A program made the translations under genes and the position numbers. Below the pieces are notes generated by a model, which had not been told where the DNA came from, made no database searches, and was given only the letters and a program-made list of their open reading frames with translations. A DNA stretch of 64,000 nucleotides from Gracilibacter sp. BRH_c7a (GTDB taxonomy: Bacteria > Bacillota > Desulfitobacteriia > Desulfitobacteriales > Syntrophobotulaceae). The number at the start of each line of letters is the position of its first letter. The stretch's first letter is position 1. The DNA is taken from positions 1 through 64,000 of the forward strand of contig LOEZ01000040.1 of NCBI GenBank assembly GCA_001516055.1, read 5' to 3'. Positions 1,956 to 45,486 of this stretch are shown piece by piece.

Positions 1956-1990
1956 ATTATCTCTCCTCTCTACTTGAAATTTGGTAAATA

Positions 1991-2141
1991 AAAAAATCCC
2001 GTCCCATAACACTGGGACGGGATTCAACCCGCGGTACCACCCGGTTTGACCTCATTTTGGAGGTCCAACTCAAAGAGATATACATTTACGTATCGTTCTT
2101 GTCAACAAGGTGGTAGAAAGCGGTTAAAGGTTTTTGAGAAA
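1991..2141 (-). promoter_or_regulatory. Second, truncated T-box module: antiterminator and terminator without a specifier stem
   Basis: After the first T-box terminator the minus-strand leader contains another T-box core (GGTGGTACCGCG, 2030-2041) followed by a GC-rich terminator with a U-run (GGGACGGGATTTTTTT, 1991-2022). There is room for only about 100 bases before the core and no Stem I with AGAGAG or GGAGU is visible. A helix resembling Stem III of the first module precedes the core. It looks like a duplication of the 3' half of the leader, giving two terminators in series ahead of the small ORF and the symporter. Confidence 0.75.
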
Positions 2142-2142
2142 C

Positions 2143-2415
2143 AAAAAAACCTCTGCCCCAATCGGGACGAGGATTACTCGCGGTACCACCCGGATTGATC
2201 GTTTTCACGATCCGCCTTCGAAGGATACGTATTCATATCCCCTTCCTGGTAACGGTGGAAGAAACCGGTATCACCTACTTGCCTCAGCGTTCAGTTAACA
2301 ACTCCAGAGGGAACTTCATTTTGACTTATGCTGTCGGCTTCCAGCTAACCCGACTCTCTGTTAAGCTTCCGTCAAAGCTACTTTCCTCTTTCCCAGTCAT
2401 TAGAAAAGTATTTTA
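2143..2415 (-). promoter_or_regulatory. T-box leader (first, full module), probable valine specifier GUU
   Basis: The minus-strand transcript carries a full T-box: the AGUA element, an AGAGAG distal stem, the specifier loop, GGAGUU, a Stem III-like helix, the T-box core (GGTGGTACCGCG, 2179-2190) and a terminator CCTCGTCCCGAT/TGGGGCAGAGG with a U-run (about 2143-2172). In Stem I, UUUGAC pairs with GUCAAA and AGAGG pairs with CCUCU. The unpaired 3' side between them reads AUGAAGUUC, placing GUU (Val, 2312-2314) at the specifier. The base after the specifier is C, not the usual purine, so the assignment is moderate. Uncharged tRNA would allow readthrough into the symporter genes. Confidence 0.85.
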
Positions 2416-21550: not shown

Positions 21551-21835
21551 AAAAAACGCCTGCCCTTGAATAAACAAGGACAGACGATTAATCTGCGGTG
21601 CCACCTTAATTGACTTGTCACAAAACAAGCCCAGCTCATTGCGGAATGCCAACACATCCCCCGTCTTTTAACGCTGACGCCGCGTCGGATTTTACTCACA
21701 GCCAAGGCTGTTTTCCCTCCGCCTTCAGGAGCCCATTTGCCAATCCGTTTCCTGCCGCGCTTTCACCATCCGCAGCTCTCTTTGAGGACGTATACTGACG
21801 TTACTTCTCCCTCAGAAGTTTCTCATATTATTTTA
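21551..21835 (-). promoter_or_regulatory. T-box leader of the trp operon, tryptophan specifier UGG
   Basis: The minus-strand leader has an AGAGAG distal stem, a specifier loop reading GGCAAAUGGG, with UGG (Trp) at 21733-21735, then TGAAGG, the T-box core GGTGGCACCGCAG (about 21593-21606) and a terminator (CGTCTGTCCTTG / CAAGGGCAGGCG plus U-run, about 21551-21586). Uncharged tRNA-Trp should stabilise the antiterminator and switch on trpEGDCFBA. A 35-base piece of the antiterminator (21575-21609) recurs at 26142-26176. Confidence 0.93.
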
Positions 21836-41929: not shown

Positions 41930-42151
41930 CATAATAATATTTTAATATGCCTTGATGGGAAGGAAACTTGTAAAAATCCCTTGAAGAGAGTTCGGATTGG
42001 TGAGAGCCGAGCAGGAATGTAACAGGTTGGGCAGCCCGGAGCGTAATGTAATATAAAGAGGGTTTCCCTTGGGGGAACCAAGCAGGGTGGAACCGCGGGA
42101 GTAAGCTCTCGTCCCTGCAGCATGTAATGCTGTATGGATGGGGGTTTTTTT
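41930..42151 (+). promoter_or_regulatory. T-box leader of glyQS, glycine specifier GGC
   Basis: A short T-box: Stem I with GAGAG and a specifier region GUUGGGCAGCCCGGAGC, in which GGC (42030-42032) is followed by A and the closing helix; then the core GGGTGGAACCGCGG (about 42085-42098) and a terminator ending in a T-run (about 42109-42151). It lacks room for a full Stem II, as is known for glycine T-boxes. Uncharged tRNA-Gly would switch on glyQ-glyS. Confidence 0.92.
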
Positions 42152-45149: not shown

Positions 45150-45177
45150 ATTCCCGTAGTAATATATAATAATAGAG

Positions 45178-45486
45178 TAAAGGCAAGGAAAAGGACTAGT
45201 ATCGGTAAACTGGATTTCAGAAAGCTGTTGGCTGATGTGAAACAGTAGAAGGGTTATCGGGAACTCACCTTGGAGCTGCTATTTGAAATTCAGGGAATTA
45301 CTTTTTTGTTCCTTGGAAAGTAAGTTTAGACGGAGCCCCACCGTTACAGGGGGAGGACATAAGGCTAGTCCCTGTGTCCATTTTGAGGGTATGAACTTGG
45401 CTTCATAAATTAGAGTGGTACCGCGAAAGTTCGGTCTTTCGTCTCTAACTGCAGAATATTGCAGGGAGACGAAAGGCCTTTTTATT
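45178..45486 (+). promoter_or_regulatory. T-box leader of leuA, leucine specifier CUC
   Basis: A full-length T-box leader. The specifier loop reads CGGGAACUCACCUUGGAGC with CUC (Leu) at 45264-45266, followed by the A and CCUUG helix. The T-box core TGGTACCGCG is at 45416-45425 and the terminator (TTTCGTCTC ... GAGACGAAAGG plus U-run) ends near 45486. Uncharged tRNA-Leu should activate leuA. A TATAAT at 45165-45170 is a candidate -10, but no good -35 is visible. Confidence 0.92.

Follow-up and report, generated by a model that had tools for sequence, protein, structure and literature searches.

Transcriptional T-box leaders of the Rfam family RF00230 are built from a Stem I that carries the specifier, a Stem II, a Stem IIA/B element, a Stem III, an antiterminator with a UGGN bulge, and a terminator. 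Partially tandem T-boxes are also known, with their mode of action listed as unknown (review PMC7583486). In fully tandem T-boxes and tandem riboswitches (PMC12452182, PMC9481103), serial terminators stand ahead of one gene and each unit has a sensor. The survey of Wels 2008 (PMC2494555) lists four sodium symporters and five chorismate mutases with T-boxes 300-480 nt upstream.

Here we analyse a leader in a 64,000-nt stretch of the genome of Gracilibacter sp. BRH_c7a (hereafter the window). It has the parts of an RF00230 T-box, but Stem III, antiterminator and terminator occur twice while Stem I occurs once, and there is also an additional hairpin with two copies of its 3' strand. Like the fully tandem systems it has serial terminators before one gene; unlike them, it has one sensor for two platforms. 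For the partially tandem T-boxes we can now offer a concrete mechanism, a shared 5' arm with exchanged 3' arms, which has covariation support. New here, judged by sequence comparison, is that of one hairpin of module 1 (the complete T-box), module 2 (the second Stem III, antiterminator and terminator) retains the 3' strand alone, and that this strand covaries with the shared 5' strand. We found no description of the shared arm or of the dominance of Phe in the literature searched, to which Vitreschak 2008 and Gutierrez-Preciado 2009, possibly describing the architecture, did not belong; nor did that search return anything on Phe T-boxes with phenylacetate or DAHP synthase. The far-upstream T-boxes of Wels 2008 plausibly belong to the same two-core class, although the accessible part of that paper describes neither a second core nor its pairing.

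Layout of the leader

The leader runs from 2403 to 1990 on the minus strand, upstream of the genes for a small symporter accessory protein and a sodium:solute symporter (SSS) (Table 1). An Infernal search of this strand with RF00230, as the earlier note had suggested, gives one T-box above the gathering score of 93 bits, at 2403-2160 (112.6 bits, E 4e-24). This match is a complete T-box and covers module 1 only. The second core is revealed by exact repetition: GGTGGTACCRCG occurs at 2190-2179 and again at 2041-2030, 149 nt from start to start, where shuffling gives an expectation of 0 copies in the window. Both cores are followed by terminators (terminator 1 at 2172-2150 with a U-tract, terminator 2 at 2024-1990), and module 2 has its own Stem III and antiterminator. 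In the roughly 77 nt that separate the U-tract of terminator 1 from Stem III of module 2 there is no Stem I motif, and permissive cmscan reported no second T-box there. The leader is therefore partially tandem, having two cores and terminators with one Stem I, rather than fully tandem with a Stem I per unit, and the partial duplication proposed in the earlier note is borne out. Spacer matches to PyrR and anti-hemB were weak, far under the gathering scores, and were rejected.

In predicted folds antiterminator 1 and terminator 1 are mutually exclusive, as are antiterminator 2 and terminator 2, since they share the CUCGUCCC and CCCGUCCC strands. Both bulges read UGGU, so both would be expected to receive the same ACCA end.

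Table 1. Features of the two-core leader and the genes behind it (window positions)
Feature	Positions	Strand	Basis or remark
Stem I (sole one)	2300-2403	-	RF00230 alignment
Specifier loop GAAGUUC; specifier UUC (Phe) at 2313-2311	2311-2317	-	Loop in 82/85 two-core loci; pheST leader L013
Stem IIA/B element, 3' end CCGUUA	2250-2268	-	RF00230 alignment
Shared 5' arm, AAGGGGAUAU	2235-2244	-	Pairs with arm 1 or arm 2
Arm 1, UAUCCUU, 3' strand of module 1 hairpin	2221-2227	-	Hairpin fold, -9.2 kcal/mol
Stem III of module 1, GAUCG...CGAUC	2197-2212	-	RF00230 alignment
Core 1, GGGUGGUACCGCG, UGGU bulge (predicted ACCA partner); antiterminator 1 about 2192-2163	2179-2191	-	
Terminator 1 and U-tract	2143-2172	-	-13.6 kcal/mol vs -10.1 for antiterminator 1
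Competing local spacer hairpin	2077-2094	-	Also spans the -10 of a promoter-like TTGACA-17-TATATC (2105-2077)
Arm 2, AUAUCUCUUU	2072-2081	-	10 contiguous pairs (two G-U) with shared 5' arm
Stem III of module 2, GACCUC...GAGGUC	2048-2065	-	Sister keeps it with a G-U replacement
Core 2, GGGUGGUACCGCG; antiterminator 2 about 2042-2013	2030-2042	-	
Terminator 2 and U-tract, 13 pairs	1990-2024	-	-23.8 kcal/mol
Symporter small accessory protein, 35 aa	1848-1955	-	NF045580, 67.7 bits vs cut-off 35
Sodium:solute symporter (SSS family), 532 aa	209-1807	-	Family-level match; proposed phenylacetate/aromatic acid importer

Spread among relatives

The sister genome (L014/G058), a Gracilibacter MAG that is the only other genome of the genus in the comparison set, has the same two-core leader before a symporter 94% identical to that of the window. 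The two leaders barely differ in the cores, both antiterminators and terminator 2; the differences fall mostly in the spacer. The orthologous leader, in which loss of a core would by the earlier note have weakened its proposal, keeps both. The 80 further genomes from the host's class all lacked the double core. Across the phylum, two GGTGGTACCNCG cores about 100-165 nt apart were found in 25 of 398 sampled genomes, and scans of three particular classes found the pattern in 26 of 63, 42 of 113 and 3 of 4 genomes; the reversed control pattern gave no hit in these phylum and class scans. Doubled cores with another bulge base (GGTGGV) were found in only two of the 398 genomes, and a scan of genome contigs returned five relatives only. 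Removal of identical leaders left 85 two-core loci for comparison.

A shared 5' arm and a doubled 3' arm

Module 1 has a hairpin between Stem IIA/B (CCGUUA) and Stem III, typically GGUAUCGGAU...AUCCCGUACC; single-core T-boxes of the host (L004, L009) contain a similar hairpin. The two strands of this hairpin are not repeated equally. The 5'-arm motif is present in module 1 of 79 of 83 two-core loci and in the spacer of only 3, while the 3'-arm motif is present in module 1 of 71 and returns just before Stem III of module 2 in 54 (1.8 when shuffled); the exact arm-2 motif is absent from 29 of the 83 loci, the window among them. By these counts module 2 has an extra 3' strand and, as a rule, no 5' strand to go with it.

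Pairing of arm 2 with the single 5' arm should leave covariation between them, and covariation was found. The duplex energy of 5' arm and arm 2 across all loci was -19.99 for native partners against -16.12 (sd 0.31) for swapped ones, a gap of 3.9 kcal/mol, and none of 2000 permutations matched the native value. Such swap and shuffle controls model phylogeny incompletely, and representatives and slid alignments guard better against relatedness: for 13 representatives below 65% identity the gap was 5.0 kcal/mol (native -19.15, swapped -14.19, sd 0.82), again unmatched in 2000 permutations, and over 49 sequences aligned without gaps the helix was 85.6% paired in register and at most 56.6% when slid. 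Eight pairs of this helix show two-sided changes (68 cells, 26.6 when shuffled). Control segments from Stem II and from Stem III of module 2 gave no native excess; a Stem I segment gave a small one in the full related set (p 0.0005), with p 0.10 among the representatives. In L082, AAAAU/AUUUU substitutes for GGAU/AUCC.

Recent duplication as the source of the match between arm 2 and the 5' arm is rejected on two grounds. First, arms 1 and 2 of the same locus are hardly more alike than arms of different loci (identity 0.685 vs 0.621). Second, the pairing often continues into the hairpin-1 loop (contiguous extension 1.95 on average vs 0.77, sd 0.15), which copying of the hairpin could not produce. 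Where the two arms differ, only arm 2 pairs with the 5' arm at 41 positions and only arm 1 at 21. Predicted folds of the full leaders, which are thermodynamic and leave aside co-transcriptional kinetics and bound tRNA, join the 5' arm to the arm-2 side in 70 of 83 loci, including the window.

In the window itself, the duplex of the 5' arm with arm 2 has an energy of -11.0 kcal/mol, reached by 0.2% of 2000 shuffles. When the whole leader is folded without constraints, the 5'-arm and arm-2 regions form a long-range helix; in the ensemble, the 5' arm pairs with the spacer at a probability of 0.84 and with arm 1 at 0.00. Arm pairing is stronger in the leaders L069 and L156 than in the window. A local spacer hairpin of about -6.9 kcal/mol competes for arm 2 in this genus, and in the sister alone the short arm test was not significant (p 0.24). 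The window genus by itself is thus insufficient, and the class carries the case: a single 5' arm that covaries with a second, spacer-borne 3' arm is found in the class and by the window's own test, and weakly in the sister alone.

Two Trp (UGG) two-core leaders surfaced in a control search, after the main set, before trpD-like (L155) and trpE-like (L156) genes. Their cores are GGUGGCACC and their shared-arm design is the same; in the trpE leader a long, nearly unbroken helix runs through the loop of hairpin 1.

Other accounts of module 2

The asymmetric retention of the arms and their covariation favour, among the modes of action that the earlier note had listed for module 2, the borrowing of the first specifier. 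A possible objection is that module 2 is an independent gate, binding any free uncharged tRNA with A73 without the help of Stem I, and that arm 2 is a relic of duplication. Core 2 is indeed complete and conserved, and isolated antiterminators bind tRNA ends weakly, which would allow such a gate. A relic, however, would be expected to retain both strands of the hairpin or neither, not mostly the 3' strand alone; the objection also has no place for the covariation of arm 2 with a distant 5' arm, and a gate of this kind would lose specificity, yet 82 of the 85 loci are Phe leaders (see below). We regard it as improbable.

A second objection accepts that the tRNA docked on Stem I also serves core 2, reaching it through a flexible linker, but takes the two serial terminators merely to cut leakage and the arm pairing to be incidental. 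Terminators in series would reduce basal expression, and the core-to-core spacing of 100-165 nt is short enough to suit this explanation, which nevertheless leaves the asymmetric retention of arm 2, its covariation and the extended match to the hairpin-1 loop without a cause; we give it little credence. It is very unlikely that a second transcript, under module 2 alone, starts from the promoter-like spacer site of the window: its -35 and spacing are good, but the -35 is missing from the sister leader, the site was not among the output of a stricter scan, and the transcript would have no Stem I. We therefore retain exchange of the 3' arms on the shared 5' arm as the preferred reading.

Specifier and regulated genes

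The base 3' of UUC in the GAAGUUC loops is unconstrained (U in 33, A in 28, C in 14 and G in 7), so position alone does not fix the reading frame of the codon, and the downstream genes must decide. The genes downstream of two-core leaders include 34 for DAHP synthase (one assignment resting on 279 residues of protein), several of these then followed by prephenate dehydratase; 18 for the phenylacetate-CoA ligase PaaK; 16 for relatives of the window symporter; and 4 that are TrpX-like, among them the Tyr-type exception described below. The remainder are mostly LivK-type ABC binding proteins, and in two cases that were checked the operon ends in paaK. The T-box of the host's pheST (L013) reads GUGAAAGUUCACC, carrying the same GUUC, and the host's valS leader is without that loop. 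Since 82 of 85 loci share GAAGUUC upstream of Phe-related genes, the specifier is UUC, which is predicted to read tRNA-Phe and which fits the regulated pathway, as expected of an RF00230 leader.

The earlier note had read GUU (Val), which is obtained when three bases are counted directly after GAA, but this can scarcely be right, given that the genes behind the 82 identical loops concern Phe or phenylacetate, with none recognised as valS or a gene of branched-chain synthesis, and that the pheST loop has the identical GUUC. The marks of a Val-specific T-box, a GUN specifier and Val or branched-chain genes, were thus not found here, and Stem I gives another codon, an outcome that the earlier note had itself named as fatal to its proposal.

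Three loci depart from GAAGUUC: one before a TrpX-like gene has an apparent UAC (Tyr) loop, and two are aminotransferase leaders of other build. L073 and L074, which precede genes for an aspartate-type aminotransferase, have two cores without GAAGUUC and without the arm hairpin, and represent a different kind of double core. In L086 the first long frame behind the two-core Phe T-box resembles a HemZ-type radical SAM protein rather than a Phe gene. L150 and L151 are two-core Phe T-boxes followed by a full Liv-type ABC operon with paaK as its last gene, which suggests an aryl-acid importer among transporters usually named for branched-chain amino acids.

Candidate substrate of the symporter

The protein falls under the cut-off of all NCBIfam equivalogs, including PanF and PutP, so its assignment is to the superfamily. 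The earlier note's identification of an SSS transporter stands, but control of such a gene by a T-box is not the oddity it was taken for, as 16 of 85 two-core loci precede relatives. In two genomes a two-core leader precedes an SSS-EamA-PaaK-ACT operon; several other relatives have unrelated next genes. Elsewhere the host has an SSS-PaaK-IorA-IorB cluster (G000:C71:60000-75000, L152) without a T-box hit, and it also has a prephenate dehydratase. By a known anaerobic route, PaaK together with indolepyruvate ferredoxin oxidoreductase converts aryl acetates to aryl pyruvates. The relatives' operons, the host's PaaK-IorAB cluster and this route together make phenylacetate or a related acid the best guess, and the symporter probably imports such an aromatic acid, going by gene context. 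Valine or a branched-chain precursor, which the earlier note had favoured, is an unlikely substrate because the Val specifier is unsupported; the UUC specifier and the Phe/phenylacetate surroundings point elsewhere. If this is right, what is expected of this symporter family would be corrected from valine to phenylacetate or aromatic acids, and the family would be linked to the PaaK-IorAB route to Phe in anaerobes.

No T-box was detected at symporter relatives of about 50% identity in the host's order, and the leader comparison accordingly leaves them out. On the SSS tree the T-box label has to change three times. The window gene clusters there with L015, at which no T-box was detected but of whose leader only part is visible, since its contig begins some 180 nt ahead of the small accessory gene. 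The L152 cluster is possibly a second unit for uptake and activation of aryl acids.

Proposed mechanism

We think it likely that the leader is a tRNA-Phe-sensing T-box whose single sensor (Stem I-II-IIA/B) serves two platforms in series, coupled by arm exchange, and that the gene it controls imports phenylacetate or a related aromatic acid. The parts, their conservation and their covariation are established by comparison of the leaders; the hand-off of the tRNA is what we infer from them. Uncharged tRNA-Phe would dock on Stem I and its ACCA end would stabilise antiterminator 1, so that RNA polymerase passes terminator 1, the first gate. Arm 2, once transcribed, would pair with the shared 5' arm, using the hairpin-1 loop as a toehold in many relatives, and would displace arm 1. 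Module 1 would thereby be looped out, Stem III of module 2 and core 2 would take its place, and the same docked tRNA would offer its end to antiterminator 2, its charging being checked twice. With two successive passes of the charging test needed for expression, leakage would be low and the response sharper; the symporter would then supply Phe synthesis, by way of PaaK and IorAB, with imported phenylacetate or a related aromatic acid.

On the broader proposal, that one docked tRNA is read twice and that strand exchange between near-identical 3' arms serves as co-transcriptional proofreading of aminoacylation in Bacillota, mainly for Phe and also for Trp, our judgement is evenly balanced. If true, this would be a riboswitch in which one sensor and two serial platforms are joined by strand exchange, multiplying fidelity without a second sensor. 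The action of a "partly doubled" T-box is in any case now a specific model that can be tested by mutation, and a class of 80-odd leaders is defined.

Other T-boxes in the window and the host

Two further T-boxes of the window fall under the Rfam cut-off: one at 41943-42119 on the plus strand (76.2 bits), before an apparent gene for the glycyl-tRNA synthetase alpha chain, and one at 21573-21824 on the minus strand (81.8 bits), before an anthranilate synthase-like gene. A Leu-type T-box (GAACUCACC) at 45177-45449 on the plus strand scores 116.4 bits and precedes a 2-isopropylmalate synthase-like gene. Elsewhere in the host, L007 and L008 (G000:C16 and C49) are identical leaders with identical proC/proB-like genes on separate contigs, reflecting either a duplicated region or assembly redundancy.
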